A stretch of DNA of 64,000 nucleotides from Fodinibius saliphilus (GTDB taxonomy: Bacteria; Bacteroidota; Rhodothermia; Balneolales; Balneolaceae): positions 186,001-250,000 of the forward strand of contig NZ_VAWF01000002.1 of the NCBI RefSeq assembly GCF_005869845.1, written 5' to 3'. The notes under the pieces are model-generated. The model saw only the letters and a program-made list of their open reading frames with translations, ran no database searches and had not been told where the DNA came from. Within the stretch, counting starts at the first letter, position 1; each line of letters starts with the position of its first letter. Below, piece after piece: positions 52,564-59,488 of the stretch. Position numbers and translations under genes: made by a program.

Positions 52564-52980
52564 TTAAGTAGTATCGGCCCTGTAACTGACGATACGATTC
52601 CAATGAAGGATAACAAACAATACAACTGCACTTAATTCTAATATTCGTCCTACCAATCCAAGTCCCCATGATACAGGGAGGAAGGAATCGGCTATAACAA
52701 TAAAGATCCCCAGATTCAGAGTTACAACCATTATAATAGCTAGTTTGGGATCTCCCCGTTGTGGCTGTTCTAAAAATCGTGGCAGCATCCAGTAGGCTGT
52801 ACCCAGTGTTAGCTGTATAACCCATCCAATAATAACGGCCTCAATATGAATAGGTAACAATATCCAAACAGCAGGATGGATGATGTATGCTTTATTGATA
52901 AGCATTACAGCGCCCATCAACATTCCCATAATGAGGTAGAGCAGAGAAATTCGGATCATCCAACGACTTACACCAGGCAT
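52564..52980 (-). CDS. Half-size NnrS/oxidase-like membrane protein A
   Basis: About 138 aa from ATG 52980, whose A overlaps the previous stop (TAATG), so the upstream ATG at 53049 is unlikely. Four predicted helices. IHIEAVIIGWVIQLTLGTAYWMLPRF carries a His six residues before Gly-Trp, the pattern of the first heme-ligand helix of NnrS and heme-copper oxidase subunit I. The next protein upstream has the matching LFWHMLMLGWITQIIIGVSIWMYPG, so the two are paralogues. Together they may form one heme-binding membrane unit. Function unknown; associated with nitric-oxide stress genes. Confidence 0.7.
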   Translation of the reverse strand: MPGVSRWMIRISLLYLIMGMLMGAVMLINKAYIIHPAVWILLPIHIEAVIIGWVIQLTLGTAYWMLPRFLEQPQRGDPKLAIIMVVTLNLGIFIVIADSFLPVSWGLGLVGRILELSAVVLFVILHWNRIVSYRADTT

Positions 52981-53429
52981 TATGAACTCCTTCTTCGCTG
53001 ACGTTTCCTTTTTTTGCGCTGCGTTTTTTTTGACATTATTCGAGGCCATATCTCAATGAGATAGGTAATCCCTCCCAATACATGCAGGACAGCAGAAATA
53101 ACGATAAGTATATTCCAGAACTCGGCATGCTGCTCGGTCATCATAGGTTCTGCTGCTACTCGTAACGCCATCCCAATATTTAGAAAGATAAAGGTAAACC
53201 AGTTCCATTTCTGGTTCCAAAAACCTTCTTCTTTGTTACGGCCGGGATACATCCATATAGAAACCCCAATAATAATCTGAGTTATCCATCCCAACATAAG
53301 CATATGCCAAAAAAGTGGCATTAAGGCCGGGAATGAAAACTGCTCAATCTCCAGGAATAACCCGGCAAACAGGGATAAAACGAAATAGACCATCCCAGAC
53401 TTAATAAATATTCTACTTATAAAAGGCAT
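52980..53429 (-). CDS. Half-size NnrS/oxidase-like membrane protein B
   Basis: A 149-aa membrane protein with four predicted helices and a basic C-terminal tail (KKTQRKKRKRQRRRSS). LFWHMLMLGWITQIIIGVSIWMYPG is close to the same segment in its neighbour at 52564. Its ATG overlaps the stop of the DUF3565 gene by one base and its stop overlaps the next ATG by one base, so the three are translationally coupled. A heme-binding, electron-transfer or NO-related role is inferred from the His motif and neighbours only. Confidence 0.7.
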   Translation of the reverse strand: MPFISRIFIKSGMVYFVLSLFAGLFLEIEQFSFPALMPLFWHMLMLGWITQIIIGVSIWMYPGRNKEEGFWNQKWNWFTFIFLNIGMALRVAAEPMMTEQHAEFWNILIVISAVLHVLGGITYLIEIWPRIMSKKTQRKKRKRQRRRSS

Positions 53430-53641
53430 TACACTTTAAAATCTTTAGGTTCGTTTCTGTCACACTTCTTACAGTCCAGTTGATGGCCCAGCCGGCTTTC
53501 TCGTCCTTTTCTACTGGTCACCCAGGGACGAAGTTGCCAGGGTGGATTGTGGCGTACATGCTGGTTATGTCCACAGCTGAGTTCGGCAACCCAATCGTCT
53601 TCTTCATCTTTATGATATCCGATTATGGGGTGCTCCATCAC
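53429..53641 (-). CDS. DUF3565 family small protein
   Basis: A 70-aa protein, starting PIIGYHKDEEDDWVAELSCGH and ending LDCKKCDRNEPKDFKV. The conserved CGHxQHxRH stretch and the C-terminal CxxC make a zinc- or metal-binding site likely. DUF3565 members are often found near respiratory or stress genes, without known function. It is coupled to its neighbours: 15 bp after the cytochrome gene, one-base overlap with the membrane gene that follows. Confidence 0.85.
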   Translation of the reverse strand: MMEHPIIGYHKDEEDDWVAELSCGHNQHVRHNPPWQLRPWVTSRKGRESRLGHQLDCKKCDRNEPKDFKV

Positions 53642-53656
53642 TTAATCCAATTACCT

Positions 53657-54118
53657 TTACTGGTTCACTTCTGAAATCCGCTTACGATAGTTAGAGTGGC
53701 AATCTACACACCCTTGCTGCACAATACGGTAATGATTTAATACCTCATCCATCTGTTGTTCAACGGCAGCCTGACGCATCGAATCAGCATGGTGATGTAC
53801 TGTCTTATCAAAAGAAATAAACTGCTTGATCTCTTTACCGAGCACTTTTTTTACCATAGCCTTATCCTCAGGGGTCATTACGGGATGATCGGCAATACCC
53901 TCGCCCCCCTTAGCAATCAAATCATAATTTTCTGTATAGATCCCTTGGTCAACAATCTGCATATCGTGAAGCAATCGCTGCATCATCGGCACCAGTTTCA
54001 TCGTTTCGGGCTGATGCGAGTCATCCTGAAAATAGGACCAACCGATCATTGAAACTGATGAAACAATAATTACAAGTAATACTGCTATGGATTCTCGTGC
54101 AATCATATCAATTGTCAA
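53657..54118 (-). CDS. Membrane-anchored small cytochrome c
   Basis: A 153-aa protein with an N-terminal membrane anchor or signal (about 8-26, SIAVLLVIIVSSVSMIGW), a helical body, and one C-terminal heme-binding motif QGCVDCHSNYRKR (Cys137, Cys140, His141). A C-terminal CxxCH after a four-helix body is the layout of cytochrome c'-type proteins, which bind NO. Several His (HHHADS at 108-113) lie in the helices. It overlaps the haemoglobin gene by 11 bp. An NO-binding or electron-donor role fits but is inferred. Confidence 0.82.
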   Translation of the reverse strand: MTIDMIARESIAVLLVIIVSSVSMIGWSYFQDDSHQPETMKLVPMMQRLLHDMQIVDQGIYTENYDLIAKGGEGIADHPVMTPEDKAMVKKVLGKEIKQFISFDKTVHHHADSMRQAAVEQQMDEVLNHYRIVQQGCVDCHSNYRKRISEVNQ

Positions 54119-54482
54119 ATTTTCCGTCCATTTCCATTCTTACTGAAAATGATGACGCAATTTTCGCCGCCATCTCTTTGGCATAATCGGCTTTTACACC
54201 TTCAAAATGCTCGTCTACTGTCTCCTCAAAAAGATTATGCCAGCGATCAAAATCCATCTTTTCAATAGGCAAGTTCATATGTTGTCGAAAAGGTCGGCCA
54301 TTGTATCGCCGGGTTTGAAACAACATATTCGACCAAAAATCTACCATTTTGGGCAAATGTTTTTCCCAGTCGACCGCCGCGTAATCGTTAAAAACATATC
54401 CCAGGCGCTCATCTTCCTGCACCTTGTCATAAAATGCATGTACCAGCGTCTTTATATCTTCATCTCCTCTAATATCGTGCAT
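54108..54482 (-). CDS. Group III truncated haemoglobin
   Basis: A 124-aa globin of group III (TrHbP/Cgb type). Features: FYDKVQEDERLGYVFNDYA, WEKHLPKMVDFWSNMLF and GRPFRQHMNLPIEKMDFDRW, in which His68 is the likely proximal heme ligand. Group III globins are linked to nitrosative-stress resistance in Campylobacter (Ctb/Cgb). It overlaps the upstream membrane gene by 14 bp and the cytochrome gene downstream by 11 bp, so expression is tightly coupled. Confidence 0.92.
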   Translation of the reverse strand: MHDIRGDEDIKTLVHAFYDKVQEDERLGYVFNDYAAVDWEKHLPKMVDFWSNMLFQTRRYNGRPFRQHMNLPIEKMDFDRWHNLFEETVDEHFEGVKADYAKEMAAKIASSFSVRMEMDGKFDN

Positions 54483-55725
54483 CGGTTCTATTTGTGTTTA
54501 CGTTTCTGAGTGTTATCCATTGTAGTGATACAGCCAATACTGGTAATAAGGCAGCTACGGCAAGGACATAAAAAACCCACACTCCGCTCCATGATGTTGG
54601 CCATAACTGTGTAGGCATTACCAGACTAATCAAAACAGCATATATTGATCCCACAACAGCATAAAAATAGCTTTTCGTTGCCTCTGACTGAACATGCAAA
54701 CTACCTAACATCATCAGCGTAAAGGCCCCGAGTAATAACACGTGCAGGTAGAATATGCGCAGTCCGTGGTCGGCCAACCAAAATGATGACGGTCCTATAG
54801 AAGCTGTTATCTGCATGACGGCTTTTAGCGCGATTAACGAAATGGGCCAGATCCAGATCTGTATTTTATATTTCCACTTTCCCGATTTTACCAGTACATA
54901 GAGAAACAGTACCAATCCCAGTGCAGCAATACCGCCTCCAATCCGTGCCACGGCCAGTAACAGCGGAGATAATAGGGATTCGGAAATACCATAGGGAAAG
55001 GTCAAGGGTGCTCCGATGACTATGCAACCCAACGACCACGTTTCTGGTATTACCCAGTCAGAAGGTTGTATATCCAACTGTATGACCACAATTGCCAGCA
55101 GGGCCAGAACCACCCATCCCTCAGTAAAAGTGGCTAGAAAAAAATGGGTCATTCCTTTCATTAACATAAAATTCTCGGGGGCAAGTGCTTGCACTACGGC
55201 TACACTCCAGGCCCCCAGCGAACATATGAAAAGCATCACCAACGAACCGTCAAACCATGGCTGTGCCGTATCATCTTTTAATTGATCACGGATTTGGTAG
55301 TATCCCCACATGAACATATACCAGCAGAGCATCACCATTCCCGATAAGATTACGGAAAGTGGCAATGTACCCGCCCCAATGGGAACCGGTCGGTATCCAT
55401 AAAGCAGGAAAAAGGGAAAGGATAATACACCAAATATTAGTCCGCCCCATATCCCGTATTTCATCCAGCCTAAAGAAGAAATGCCCGGCTTGAAATTATC
55501 ACAAATATACTTGAGCAAAAGATACAATGGTATAGGCACCGCCCATCCGAAAAACATCAGATGCGAATGGGCATGCCGTATATTTTCCAACGATAGGTCG
55601 AGCGATGATGTAAGCCAACCTATCATCCCCAGGCGATACAGAAATCCCGTGAGGCCTGCTATAATAAAACAGGCCACCGATACCTTCCAAAGGGAATCGA
55701 TCCGGGATCTGATTTTATTTTCCAT
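54469..55725 (-). CDS. 12-helix membrane protein, NnrS/heme-copper-oxidase-like
   Basis: A 418-aa polytopic protein with about 12 helices. RHAHSHLMFFGWAVPIPLYLLLKYI (about 49-74) resembles the heme/metal-ligand helix of NnrS (WHAHEMLFG) and of heme-copper oxidase subunit I. More His are in helices near 190 (GMTHFFLATFTEGW) and 320-335 (DHGLRIFYLHVLLLGAF). NnrS proteins ease nitric-oxide stress in denitrifiers. The protein does not contain the full six-His set of oxidases that I can trace, so catalysis of NO or oxygen reduction is not claimed. It lies 27 bp after the 601-aa gene. Confidence 0.72.
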   Translation of the reverse strand: MENKIRSRIDSLWKVSVACFIIAGLTGFLYRLGMIGWLTSSLDLSLENIRHAHSHLMFFGWAVPIPLYLLLKYICDNFKPGISSLGWMKYGIWGGLIFGVLSFPFFLLYGYRPVPIGAGTLPLSVILSGMVMLCWYMFMWGYYQIRDQLKDDTAQPWFDGSLVMLFICSLGAWSVAVVQALAPENFMLMKGMTHFFLATFTEGWVVLALLAIVVIQLDIQPSDWVIPETWSLGCIVIGAPLTFPYGISESLLSPLLLAVARIGGGIAALGLVLFLYVLVKSGKWKYKIQIWIWPISLIALKAVMQITASIGPSSFWLADHGLRIFYLHVLLLGAFTLMMLGSLHVQSEATKSYFYAVVGSIYAVLISLVMPTQLWPTSWSGVWVFYVLAVAALLPVLAVSLQWITLRNVNTNRTDARY

Positions 55726-55752: not shown

Positions 55753-57558
55753 TTATGCCGGTATAGCTAACTGCTCAAATAAGGTGTTTAAACGTTTTTG
55801 CTGTTTTTCAACAGTAGCCGGAATTGATTCCAGGTTTTCATCTTTATAAGATTCTGACTTTGCAATCTGCAAGCAGTAATCCATTCCATTTTCGAGATTA
55901 TTCTTAAACTTTTTGAGTTTCTTGATGTTTCCCGACGAACCGTCGTGTTGTTCCACAAGCTCCTCAAAGTAATCCACATAAAGAACAATCTCTTTGGCAA
56001 ACATATGGGGGCGTTCGGAAGGAACCAAAGATTCACTTCTGCCATAAATATGATCTACCATCTCACGGAGACTATACTCCCCGTCGAACCACGCAATATT
56101 AGGGCCCGGGCAGATCGCCTGCGGAGCACGATGCTCGGCTAAAATACCCAAATCAATTAGCGCGCCGTTGCCCAAGTGGTCACATAAACAAGCTTTTTCC
56201 AGTACCTTTTCCCGTTGTTTCTCTTTTTCTTTTTCCGTCATATCGCTCTGGTTGATATCATCCAGCTTTAACAACTGATACTGATTAGAAGCTGTACAGA
56301 TCGGGTTTTCGGTGAATTCTGTATTAGATTCGAGAAATCCTTTTGGACAGGGTGAACCGGGCTTTCCTTTTTCAATACGCTCTTCGTGATACTGGTGCGA
56401 TCCGGTATTTCGCACGTTATTAAAAGGCACACCCAGCGGTGACACTCCACTCAGATACAGATCTTCTTCGGTAGCATTTTCGAGCAGTTCACGTGTGGGT
56501 TTATCTACCGTAGTTGCTTCCGGTACTAACAAGAACGGACTTCCCCATCCAGTTGCATCCATACCGAAATCTTCGAGTAATCGGTGGGCTTCTCCACTTA
56601 CTCCAATCCCACCCTGAACTGTCAGGCGTGGTTCTTCAAACTCCCAATCATCAGAAAATCCATCTCCATTCTTCTCATAATACTTCTCAATTAATGGCTT
56701 TACTGCAGAACTTAGCATTTCCCGCTTTTCTCTAAACTCTTTAAGCAACGAAGGCAACAAATAACCATCGGAGGCAAATGCGTGTCCGCCACAGTTCAAA
56801 CCAGACTCAATTCGATATTCAAAAACTTCTAATCCTTTCTTTGCCAAATATTTTCCCTGGATAAGAGCTGATCTGAAATCACTTACCTTTAGGATGATTT
56901 TCTTTTTGATATCTCCCTTTGCATCCCGGTAAAAGTCTTTAAATTCACTCATATAATTATATAAGCGAGGATTAAATCCGGCTGACAGAATAAGACTGGA
57001 TGCGAGCTCACTTTCTGCGTAACCACGCAAAGCAGCATTTGCATCACTAAATTCGCCACTCATTGGGGTTCCATCCTTCTCGTAGTTAAGCCCATCAACC
57101 TTGGCCATAATATTCACATCAATAGAACCAGGCTTCATGAGTTGAGAGAGCTTACAGGAAATCTTGTCGCGAAGTGTACCTTCCTCGGTTTCCATGAGTT
57201 TATTGTACATGCCCTTTAACTCACTGGTATCGGGCAACAGGTCAAAATACTTGGCCTTTTCATTATCCTCAAAAAAAGGTTGAGACTTAATAGCTTCGAA
57301 TTGATTCTGTACCAACTTTTGAGCCAGGTTTAAATACGCTGTTATTCGTTGTGCACGACCATCTTCTGCACTGCGCGGAATGTTATTATATGGCAGCTCA
57401 AACTTTTTACAGTAATGCTTTCGAATTCGCTCAACAAGCAGATCATCTACAATTGAGATTACTGAATCGATACCGTACGGACCTACCCGTATGGGAGAAT
57501 CAATAGAGTGCCCTGTTCCCATAACCGGGATTGAAAATGTATGTGAAGAGTTTGACAT
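55753..57558 (-). CDS. 601-aa Cys-rich protein, NMO/PfaD-like FMN barrel candidate
   Basis: A 601-aa soluble protein. I know of similar unnamed proteins beginning with a PVMG-x-IDSPIRV-type stretch, but no function. Two segments look like the FMN-site loops of nitronate monooxygenases and PfaD: SGLNCGGHAFASDGYLLP (253-270, compare EAGGH) and VQGGIGVSGEAHRLL plus DATGWGSPFLLVPEA (314-348, compare AGGI...GADGVxMGTxFL). The N-terminal IPVMGTGHSIDSP (10-22) could be the first barrel strand. Later Cys at 404, 421, 457, 459 and 493 (GSPCPKG, NPICTAS, KACLCDHLG, AICPGPN) could hold an Fe-S cluster. A C-terminal helical region follows. Set in a nitrosative-stress operon, oxidation or reduction of a nitro or nitroso compound is a reasonable guess, not proven. 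Confidence 0.7.
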   Translation of the reverse strand: MSNSSHTFSIPVMGTGHSIDSPIRVGPYGIDSVISIVDDLLVERIRKHYCKKFELPYNNIPRSAEDGRAQRITAYLNLAQKLVQNQFEAIKSQPFFEDNEKAKYFDLLPDTSELKGMYNKLMETEEGTLRDKISCKLSQLMKPGSIDVNIMAKVDGLNYEKDGTPMSGEFSDANAALRGYAESELASSLILSAGFNPRLYNYMSEFKDFYRDAKGDIKKKIILKVSDFRSALIQGKYLAKKGLEVFEYRIESGLNCGGHAFASDGYLLPSLLKEFREKREMLSSAVKPLIEKYYEKNGDGFSDDWEFEEPRLTVQGGIGVSGEAHRLLEDFGMDATGWGSPFLLVPEATTVDKPTRELLENATEEDLYLSGVSPLGVPFNNVRNTGSHQYHEERIEKGKPGSPCPKGFLESNTEFTENPICTASNQYQLLKLDDINQSDMTEKEKEKQREKVLEKACLCDHLGNGALIDLGILAEHRAPQAICPGPNIAWFDGEYSLREMVDHIYGRSESLVPSERPHMFAKEIVLYVDYFEELVEQHDGSSGNIKKLKKFKNNLENGMDYCLQIAKSESYKDENLESIPATVEKQQKRLNTLFEQLAIPA

Positions 57559-57648: not shown

Positions 57649-58368
57649 TTAGTTTAGTCGATTTTCCAGTTCCAATGCTTTAGGAAAAAGTACATTATTT
57701 TCTAAATGCACATGTTTGTGCAAATCATCCTGGAAGCCTTCCAGGTTCTGAAAGAGTACCCTGTAGGTAGCACATGCATCCTGCGGAGGTGTAAAACCAT
57801 TACTCAGCTCTTCTATCTGTGCCATCAAATTACCGGCATCTTCATGCTCGGCTTCCATCATAGCTACTGGATTAGCTGCTGTTTTAAAGTCAGGTTTTTC
57901 AACAGGTTTTCCCTTTTTTTCAGCATTAACCAACTGTTTGATATAAGGGAACAGAATTTCCTCCTCCTTCATCAAATGGCTGAGCATTTCTTCTTTCAGC
58001 GTCAAGAAAGTATCTCGTATCTGTATTACCTCTTCGTGACGCTCACCATGTACACGGGCTACCTTATGAGCGTAAATTTCAATTTCAGATGTTTTAGCCC
58101 GCACAAATTCGTGATGTCGCTCAATGATGTAATCCACAAGCAGGGCAGGGGACCAATCATTATAATTGTGATTCGCGGAATTGACACTGCCTAAAGACAG
58201 CAGTTCTTTTGAGAGTTTATCAAAATCTACCCCTTTCTTCTCACATGCTTCTGAAACAGTTCGTTTTCCACCGCAACAGAAATCCAGTCCAAACTTTTTG
58301 AAAATTCCGGCCGTTCTATAGTCGTCGGCTACAATTTCTCCTATTGTTTGTCCATTTAACTTTTCCAT
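57649..58368 (-). CDS. RIC/ScdA/YtfE di-iron Fe-S cluster repair protein
   Basis: A 239-aa repair-of-iron-centres protein. The N-terminal ScdA domain (1-60) has GLDFCCGGKRTVSEACEKKGVD with Cys31 and Cys32. The hemerythrin-like domain (about 78-235) supplies di-iron ligands in IIERHHEFVRAK, HEEVIQI, HLMKEEEILFPYI, EAEHEDAGNLMAQIEELS and HVHLENNVLFPKALELE. RIC proteins repair Fe-S clusters damaged by NO or peroxide and are typical members of NO-response regulons. It sits between ctaA and the 601-aa gene, with its own 79-bp upstream gap. Confidence 0.94.
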   Translation of the reverse strand: MEKLNGQTIGEIVADDYRTAGIFKKFGLDFCCGGKRTVSEACEKKGVDFDKLSKELLSLGSVNSANHNYNDWSPALLVDYIIERHHEFVRAKTSEIEIYAHKVARVHGERHEEVIQIRDTFLTLKEEMLSHLMKEEEILFPYIKQLVNAEKKGKPVEKPDFKTAANPVAMMEAEHEDAGNLMAQIEELSNGFTPPQDACATYRVLFQNLEGFQDDLHKHVHLENNVLFPKALELENRLN

Positions 58369-58447: not shown

Positions 58448-59488
58448 TTAACGTTTTATCCGGTATACCCGATGTAAAACAGTCAGCCAACTTATCCAAA
58501 CCACCATAGCAGCAAACTGGTGCAGCACTCCGGCTTCTACAGGTACGTTCATCAACAGGGTAACAATCCCCAACACATACTGGATAATAACCAAGGCAAA
58601 CAAAATTTGTGCTCGTTGATACAATAAGACATCCTTCAATTTCTTTGCCTTAAACCAAGTTATTGCCACTGCTATCACAAATACTGTTCCCAAAATCCGG
58701 TGCATCCATTGTACAGTACCGGGATTCTCAACCAAATTAAGCAACGCCGGCTGCATCGTCATAAAGTTCTGTGGAAGCCAGCTACCATTCATAAGTGGGA
58801 AAGTGTTATAGATTAATCCCGCATCCAATCCTGCTACTAACGCTCCCCAGACTATCTGTAAGGCTAACAAAATACCTACTGCTACAGTCAACTTAGTTAC
58901 AGATGAATCAAACTTCTCAATATCAGTAGTTCGTCTTTTTCTCAGATCCAGGGCAAACCACGTACAAAACCCCACCAGGGCAAAAGCCAGAATTAAATGC
59001 AGCATTAATCGATAATGGCTAACCCGTGGCACATCAATCAGTCCACTTTTTACCATTATCCAACCCATAATGCCCTGTGCAGCTCCCAACACAAATAAAA
59101 AGAGGGAGCGCTTTATTAGCCTTTGCGTGAAGTAACCACGAATCAAAAACCAAATAAAGGGAACCATGAAAACCAATCCCACGATTCTACCGAGCAGCCG
59201 ATGCGTATATTCCCAAAAGAAAATCGACTTAAATCCATCCAGCGTCATCCCAACATTCAATTGTTGATACTCCGGGAACTGTTTGTACTGGTTAAAGGCT
59301 TCTTGCCATCCCGTTTCTGACATGGGCGGGAATACGCCCATTATCACATTCCAGTCTGTCATGGATAGGCCGGAACCGGTTAGACGCGTAATACCACCAA
59401 CTACCAGCATCAGCGTAATAAGACCGGCTCCGGACCAAAACCACCATTGTATATATTTTTCAGATCTCCCGTTCGCTGTTTCTTCCAT
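58448..59488 (-). CDS. ctaA: Heme A synthase (CtaA/COX15)
   Basis: A 346-aa eight-helix membrane enzyme that oxidises heme O to heme A for aa3-type oxidases. Family pattern: WWFWSGAGLITLMLVVGGITRLTGSGLSMTDW, FWEYTHRLLGRIVGLVFMVPF (His), VSHYRLMLHLILAF (His), VQWMHRILGTVFV (His) and VLHQFAAMVVWISWL (His), the four conserved ligands. An aa3 oxidase gene is not in the window. It begins two bases after the ppdK stop, so it is cotranscribed with ppdK and hemN. Confidence 0.94.
   Translation of the reverse strand: MEETANGRSEKYIQWWFWSGAGLITLMLVVGGITRLTGSGLSMTDWNVIMGVFPPMSETGWQEAFNQYKQFPEYQQLNVGMTLDGFKSIFFWEYTHRLLGRIVGLVFMVPFIWFLIRGYFTQRLIKRSLFLFVLGAAQGIMGWIMVKSGLIDVPRVSHYRLMLHLILAFALVGFCTWFALDLRKRRTTDIEKFDSSVTKLTVAVGILLALQIVWGALVAGLDAGLIYNTFPLMNGSWLPQNFMTMQPALLNLVENPGTVQWMHRILGTVFVIAVAITWFKAKKLKDVLLYQRAQILFALVIIQYVLGIVTLLMNVPVEAGVLHQFAAMVVWISWLTVLHRVYRIKR

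Follow-up and report, generated by a model that had tools for sequence, protein, structure and literature searches.

Predicted single-heme relatives of heme-copper oxidases in a denitrification gene neighbourhood of Fodinibius saliphilus

What are the three membrane proteins, here called N418, H149 and H161, that are encoded between positions 52,564 and 55,725 of a 64,000-nucleotide stretch of the Fodinibius saliphilus genome (contig NZ_VAWF01000002.1, positions 186,001 to 250,000; the window)? A sequence-only reading had described them as NnrS/oxidase-like, one full-length and two half-size, and had suggested a membrane heme complex for the handling of nitric oxide (NO) that is not NorB. The motifs on which it drew are present in the sequences (Table 1). 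Our analysis suggests, with a probability of roughly 60%, that all three are single-heme proteins homologous to heme-copper oxidases (HCO), which would keep the low-spin heme site of that family and serve NO handling in denitrification.

Fold and heme ligands of N418

The AlphaFold2 model of N418 has a predicted local distance difference test (pLDDT) score of 95.5. It was built from an alignment of 72 out of 75 sequences (that of the window and 74 others; L078, L101 and L106 were excluded), 8 incomplete pieces having been skipped beforehand. The top Foldseek matches of the model are the catalytic subunits of cbb3, bo3 and aa3 oxidases and of NO reductase (best E-value 1.4e-6). VIA-align superposes 401 of the 418 residues on CcoN (8smr_E) with a Z score of 34.2, a root-mean-square deviation of 3.1 Å and 9% identity. 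The Z score to the cNOR NorB of Roseobacter denitrificans is 31.4. N418 shows the 12-helix catalytic-subunit fold of the HCO superfamily, as the term oxidase-like had implied; H149 shows it only as one third. At the sequence level, N418 aligns by hhalign with 53 HCO open reading frames (ORFs) at E 2.8e-6, and H53 falls on the helix-II heme ligand. PF00115 is found at E ≤ 0.01 in 6 of the 72 relatives. The window N418 gave no family match in Pfam or NCBIfam, and a PDB sequence search with profiles of N418, H149 and H161 returned no match at E ≤ 1.

In HCO the low-spin heme is held by two axial ligands, a histidine of helix II and the second histidine of helix X. In N418 these positions are taken by H53 and H328. 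Both residues, as well as H51 and H55, are invariant in 97 of 97 relatives; the helix-II counts are partly biased because RHAHSHLM served as the query of the wide search. The position of the HCO high-spin heme histidine, two before H328, is Tyr in 87, Phe in 7 and His in none of the 97, and the His-His pair of helix VII (residues 225-250) is found in one. The helix-VI histidine of the CuB/FeB set, H194, is present in 88 of them. The high-spin heme ligand and a complete CuB/FeB set are thus lacking, and the earlier view that this is not NorB holds. Because H53 and H328 are invariant and the residues for the second site are wanting, we read N418 as keeping the low-spin heme site of the HCO fold without the binuclear site. 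It is predicted to hold a single bis-His heme, which should lie between H53 (helix II) and H328 (helix X).

H149 and H161 as separate oxidase units

H149 and H161 are paralogous, as had been claimed (hhalign E 4.7e-14 with 16 and 16 sequences, 7.8e-31 with 51 and 49). PF00115 is matched at E ≤ 0.01 by 19 of 19 relatives of each protein, the window members scoring under the 34.8-bit cut-off. Their hhalign matches to N418 are not significant with small alignments (E 0.029 and 0.018) and still weak with large ones (1.3e-4 and 9.9e-5). On this evidence N418 appears to be kin to the pair only distantly. The broader picture of one full-length protein and a paralogous pair sharing a type of heme-ligand helix is supported; the description half-size is not, since each member of the pair corresponds to one third of the 12-helix fold.

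The two proteins align with different parts of that fold. H149 falls on HCO columns 306-465 (helices IX-XII) at E 6.4e-8, with H42 on the second histidine of helix X. H161 falls on columns 11-115 (helices I-III, to III/IV) at E 4.1e-9, with H45 on the histidine of helix II. H149 His42 is invariant (51/51), and so is H161 His45 (49/49); Glu47 of H161 is found in 46 of 49. The spacing of the following residues agrees with this placement. Of 37 distinct HCO contexts of the helix-X low-spin ligand, 32 have Pro at +20 and 25 have Gly at +5; these contexts come from 53 oxidase ORFs, 15 repeated contexts and one without HxH having been dropped. The corresponding H42-G47-P62 of H149 (+5, +20) is kept in 51/51 relatives. 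H161 has H45-G52-P67 (+7, +22) in 49/49, and the CcoN of the same genome also has Pro at +22 from its helix-II histidine. By eye, the helix-II spacing is +22 in CcoN and a few other oxidases and +23 in aa3. Only the helix-X rule was counted, because the script chose the wrong histidine in most A-type oxidases. The histidines of the pair had been placed at matching positions. They do fall on HCO ligand positions, but they are two residues off from each other (H42 is at G-5, H45 at G-7).

By homology and register, H149 is a putative third HCO unit and H161 a putative first unit, encoded as separate genes. The copper-carrying middle third appears to have no counterpart in the pair. The structure models cover N418 and H149, as single chains. 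That of H149 (pLDDT 87.7) has four long helices and a C-terminal helix. VIA gives Z 14.4-11.4 against oxidase and NOR chains, and 33 of the first 34 matches fall on their C-terminal third.

It is conceivable, and we put it forward tentatively, that the pair is a split oxidase core, an obligate heteromer in which the complementary histidines would rebuild the low-spin heme site at a subunit interface and the copper third would be absent. Glu47 of H161 sits where other units carry a metal- or heme-binding histidine, and higher oligomers could hold a second, non-heme metal. If true, such a core would represent either a surviving intermediate of the triplication from which the oxidase fold is supposed to have arisen, or that process in reverse. 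If one heme spans two gene products, the old idea that this fold originated from a four-helix unit becomes testable in a small, separable two-gene system.

Gene neighbourhood and the denitrification setting

In 195 genomes of the class, N418 is found in 59, H149 in 61 and both in 41 (Fisher P 1.2e-13, uncorrected for descent). The N418 count comes from a single-sequence search, which misses some (L260, L275). For H149, 3 of 64 genomes were dropped, as they had only short profile matches within large oxidase ORFs. By eye, H161 is present in 60 of the 61 H149 genomes; G149 is the one without it. The order of the pair is strict. Among 97 H149 genes examined, 95 have H161 directly downstream, and this is the case for all 49 distinct pairs, of which 39 overlap or have a gap of at most 14 nt. 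The two H149 genes without H161 behind them, L163 and L164, are of a different Bacteroidota type. These loci (L163, 1435-1890 and 2198-3271; L164, 31-1890), from other Bacteroidota families, encode another four-helix HCO unit with the motif HTH..LVG, which lacks an H161 partner. Its neighbours there are genes of the DUF59 and ferredoxin-like types and one for a larger protein with HAH..GW.

In the window, the genes run on the minus strand in the order PPDK, CtaA, RIC, a 601-residue protein, N418, globin, cytochrome c, DUF3565, H149, H161 and acetyl-CoA hydrolase (Table 1). The gene upstream of CtaA is one that we take from its sequence to be PPDK. The globin and cytochrome c between N418 and the pair are there as had been noted, with the DUF3565 gene in addition. 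The ORF coordinates given earlier are right, but the 161-residue ORF (52564-53049) begins too early; H161 starts at the ATG at 52980, with a conserved MP(x)xSR, and has 138 residues. Its start overlaps the H149 stop as TAATG, and an overlap of this kind also links the end of DUF3565 to the start of H149. The N418 and globin genes overlap by 14 nt, and in Fodinibius halophilus both are in frame within one 577-residue ORF (L041/L078). DUF3565 is a small, Cys/His-rich protein, and this domain is not named in any open-licence PMC paper found by our literature search. Relatives of the 601-residue protein were found by phmmer in Balneolaceae clusters, where it is conserved beside RIC; its PDB matches are marginal (best E 0.0082) and no family was assigned. 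Sites for an anaerobic regulator (TTGAY-N4-RTCAA) were considered and rejected, with 14 found, 12.3 expected and none ahead of RIC.

Table 1. Features of the gene run, in positions of the window
Feature	Position	Strand	Evidence
Heme A synthase-like CtaA, directly upstream of RIC	58448..59488	-	PF02628 351.6 bits
RIC/YtfE/DnrN di-iron protein, located upstream within this gene run	57649..58368	-	equivalog TIGR03652 252.4 bits, above the cut-off of 204.7
601-residue protein between RIC and N418	55753..57558	-	no Pfam/NCBIfam match above cut-off
N418, HCO-homology protein, 418 residues, 12 helices	54469..55725	-	motif HAHSHLMFFGW at residues 51-61
Truncated, bacterial-like globin	54108..54482	-	PF01152 36.2 bits, cut-off 21
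Membrane-anchored cytochrome c, cyt c'-like	53657..54106	-	ATG at 54106, end at 53657; CVDCH near C terminus; PF01322 E 2.5e-4, below cut-off
DUF3565 protein, 69 residues	53429..53638	-	PF12088 111.4 bits; gene overlooked in the sequence-only reading
H149, four-helix protein, 149 residues	52980..53429	-	HMLMLGW at residues 42-48; PF00115 E 9.2e-8
H161, four-helix protein, 138 residues from true start	52564..52980	-	HIEAVIIGW at residues 45-53; PF00115 E 1.1e-7

The nosZ gene of the same genome (C2:253598-255418, C2 being a contig) lies about 10 kb from the N418-H149-H161 cluster, and a denitrification island thus spans roughly C2:238-275 kb. The genome also encodes the copper nitrite reductase NirK, azurin and an Rrf2 regulator. 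It has four full-length-type oxidase genes, namely aa3, cbb3, a 575-residue HCO and a degenerate 480-residue HCO. The 575-residue protein has Gln at the active-site Tyr (GHMSQQ versus SHPAVY in the genome's own aa3). PMC8756737 gives this replacement as the mark of eNOR, and by that mark the protein would be an eNOR-like NO reductase. As for a norB elsewhere in the genome, the four oxidase genes showed neither a cNOR nor a qNOR. The stretch C2:263885-274826 (L038, L039), outside the window, holds nirK, azurin, the Rrf2 regulator and the eNOR-like HCO together, and also a CuA-like subunit, a Sco-type protein, a cytochrome b-ferredoxin fusion and the degenerate 480-residue HCO.

This NO setting, and the presence of further conserved residues, would also fit N418 or the pair turning over NO as an unorthodox NO reductase or dioxygenase. 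A second metal could then be bound at H194/E202 of N418 (H194 in 88 of 97 relatives, E202 as Glu in 70 of 97), at the invariant H51/H55 or at E47 of H161. We consider this improbable, as the high-spin heme histidine and the helix-VII pair of N418 are lost and the genome already encodes an eNOR-like enzyme.

The setting recurs in other genomes. The wide search for N418 gave 99 relatives, of which 80 were kept, from Balneolaceae, Rhodothermales, Chloroflexi, Lujinxingia, Deinococcales and others. Relatives in Balneolota, Rhodothermota and Chloroflexota lie together with RIC, nirK and nos genes. The RIC-N418-H149-H161 linkage recurs in Balneolaceae, and in four Chloroflexota loci (L112, L125, L147, L153) N418 lies close to the pair. 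Of 20 H149-H161 loci that were picked for spread, 14 have RIC, nirK or nos genes, one of them through a short RIC piece. Other recurrent neighbours of the pair are DUF2249, cupin and CopD-like genes. A hypothetical complex of the three proteins could include the globin and cytochrome c; the genes for these two and for DUF3565 are missing from several clusters of relatives (L053, L057, L059-L061) in which N418, H149 and H161 are kept. The NO and denitrification setting proposed from the sequence is supported by the RIC, nirK and nos neighbours and by the NosZ of the genome itself. Membrane proteins of about 365 residues with the motif LHGPLM..GF occur near cupin genes or the pair (L125, 4412-5530; L256, 6967-8682; L123, 7967-9100), and this family has no Pfam match.

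In the nos cluster of Rhodohalobacter-like genomes the order is nosZ-nosL-nosD-ABC pair-ctaA-N418-Rrf2-hemN, with RIC-H149-H161 just upstream in L102 and L110. Its NosZ scores 890 bits with TIGR04246, and N418 stands at the end of the cluster. CtaA adjoins N418 in the nos clusters of relatives too. This proximity to ctaA and hemN, and to genes for nosD, the ABC transporter, nosL and a CopD-like membrane protein, could mean that the three proteins are assembly or repair factors for denitrification metalloenzymes, delivering heme or copper to NosZ, NirK or eNOR. RIC itself is a repair protein according to PMC9268430. We regard this explanation as unlikely, since the strictly kept residues are the redox-heme ligands of HCO and a chaperone has no need of a bis-His heme clamp; moreover, the RIC, globin and cyt c'-like neighbours suit NO stress equally well. 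Rrf2 regulators are frequent neighbours, which would agree with membrane hemes that sense NO or redox state and signal to regulators or to globin and cytochrome partners. This is very unlikely in our view, because none of the three proteins has a signalling domain or a conserved soluble domain and Rrf2 proteins sense by themselves.

From the computed fold, homology, ligand register and gene linkage we infer the following single-heme scheme. N418 would be one chain of three four-helix units, in which H53 and H328 clamp one heme. H161 and H149 would be co-translated and pair as first and third unit without the copper-bearing middle unit, His45 of H161 and His42 of H149 clamping one heme across the subunit interface. 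These heme b proteins may pass electrons from the quinol pool towards the periplasmic cytochrome c and/or bind NO. RIC would mend NO-damaged iron centres, and the globin would scavenge NO in the cytoplasm. The role is most likely NO handling at the membrane of a salt-loving nirK/nosZ denitrifier, by electron transfer or by binding. If true, a group of widespread, poorly annotated denitrification neighbours would gain a concrete single-heme membrane protein hypothesis with named ligands.

Several results weigh against this proposal. Pfam COX1 aligns each member of the pair with the first HCO unit, contrary to the hhalign split; the assignment to units is accordingly taken from hhalign and the register. 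The best Foldseek match of the H149 model is not significant (E 0.32), Z scores near 14 can be reached by helical bundles as background, and the MAPEG and styrene oxide isomerase folds give VIA Z 9-11 with H149. N418 was not matched in 20 of the 61 H149 genomes, and 18 of the 59 N418 genomes are without H149; the three proteins are therefore not strictly obligate partners. The pair loci L257, L259, L261 and L262 have none of the marker genes (RIC, nirK, nos). The link of all three proteins to NO is drawn from their neighbour genes. NO is not usually bound by hemes with two histidine ligands, and a step in which NO binds would therefore require loss of a ligand.

Comparison with known systems

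The HCO catalytic subunits CcoN, NorB and CtaD (PF00115) have the same fold as N418 (Z 28-34) and the same low-spin ligand positions. N418 differs from them in having neither the high-spin heme ligand nor the CuB/FeB histidine triad, and H149 and H161 differ in being single units.

NnrS (PF05940), to which the proteins had been likened, shares the NO regulon context; according to PMC1274295, NO regulons have RIC (dnrN) and nnrS among their core members. By eye, the NnrS-like sequences L159-L161 have a helix-II histidine with Gly at +7 and Pro at +22 and a helix-X histidine with Gly at +5, as in H161 and H149. Membership of N418 in the family is not borne out, as none of 72 relatives matches the profile at E ≤ 0.01 and hhalign against the three NnrS-like sequences gives E 0.02 only. 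Across the window families this comparison, made with a thin profile, gave E 0.02-0.6 and no support. In the pair, H149 scores 29.0 bits against a cut-off of 28, but only over the C-terminal third (columns 258-369, 112 of 371) and with 4 of 19 relatives matching, and H161 has 0 of 19. A search for NnrS among plasmids gave no match.

Styrene oxide isomerase (PDB 8pnu) has four-helix subunits like H149 (VIA Z 11.2, the background level of helical bundles). According to PMC11374702, one histidine holds heme b at the subunit interface of its trimer. It differs in being a homotrimer with one axial histidine and in its epoxide chemistry.

No paper describing the N418, H149 or H161 families was found in the open-licence PMC literature. 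The kind of protein is apparently known, because four-helix HCO units and NnrS-type homologues are reportedly the subject of work by Pei, Li, Kinch and Grishin (2014, Protein Sci 23:1220). Single four-helix HCO units in separate genes, most like helices 9-12, are reportedly described there, with homo- or heterotrimers as their expected assembly. Members with three units, NnrS among them, reportedly have two conserved histidines and one heme, in a denitrification or NO context. H149 and H161 fit the first description, being single four-helix HCO units in separate genes, and N418 fits the second. The complementary ligand pair of a third and a first unit, the strict tandem order, and the run of RIC, globin, cytochrome c and DUF3565 genes come from the present analysis. 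As far as the searched open-licence PMC literature goes, the complementary, strictly ordered H149-H161 pair and its gene setting are new here.

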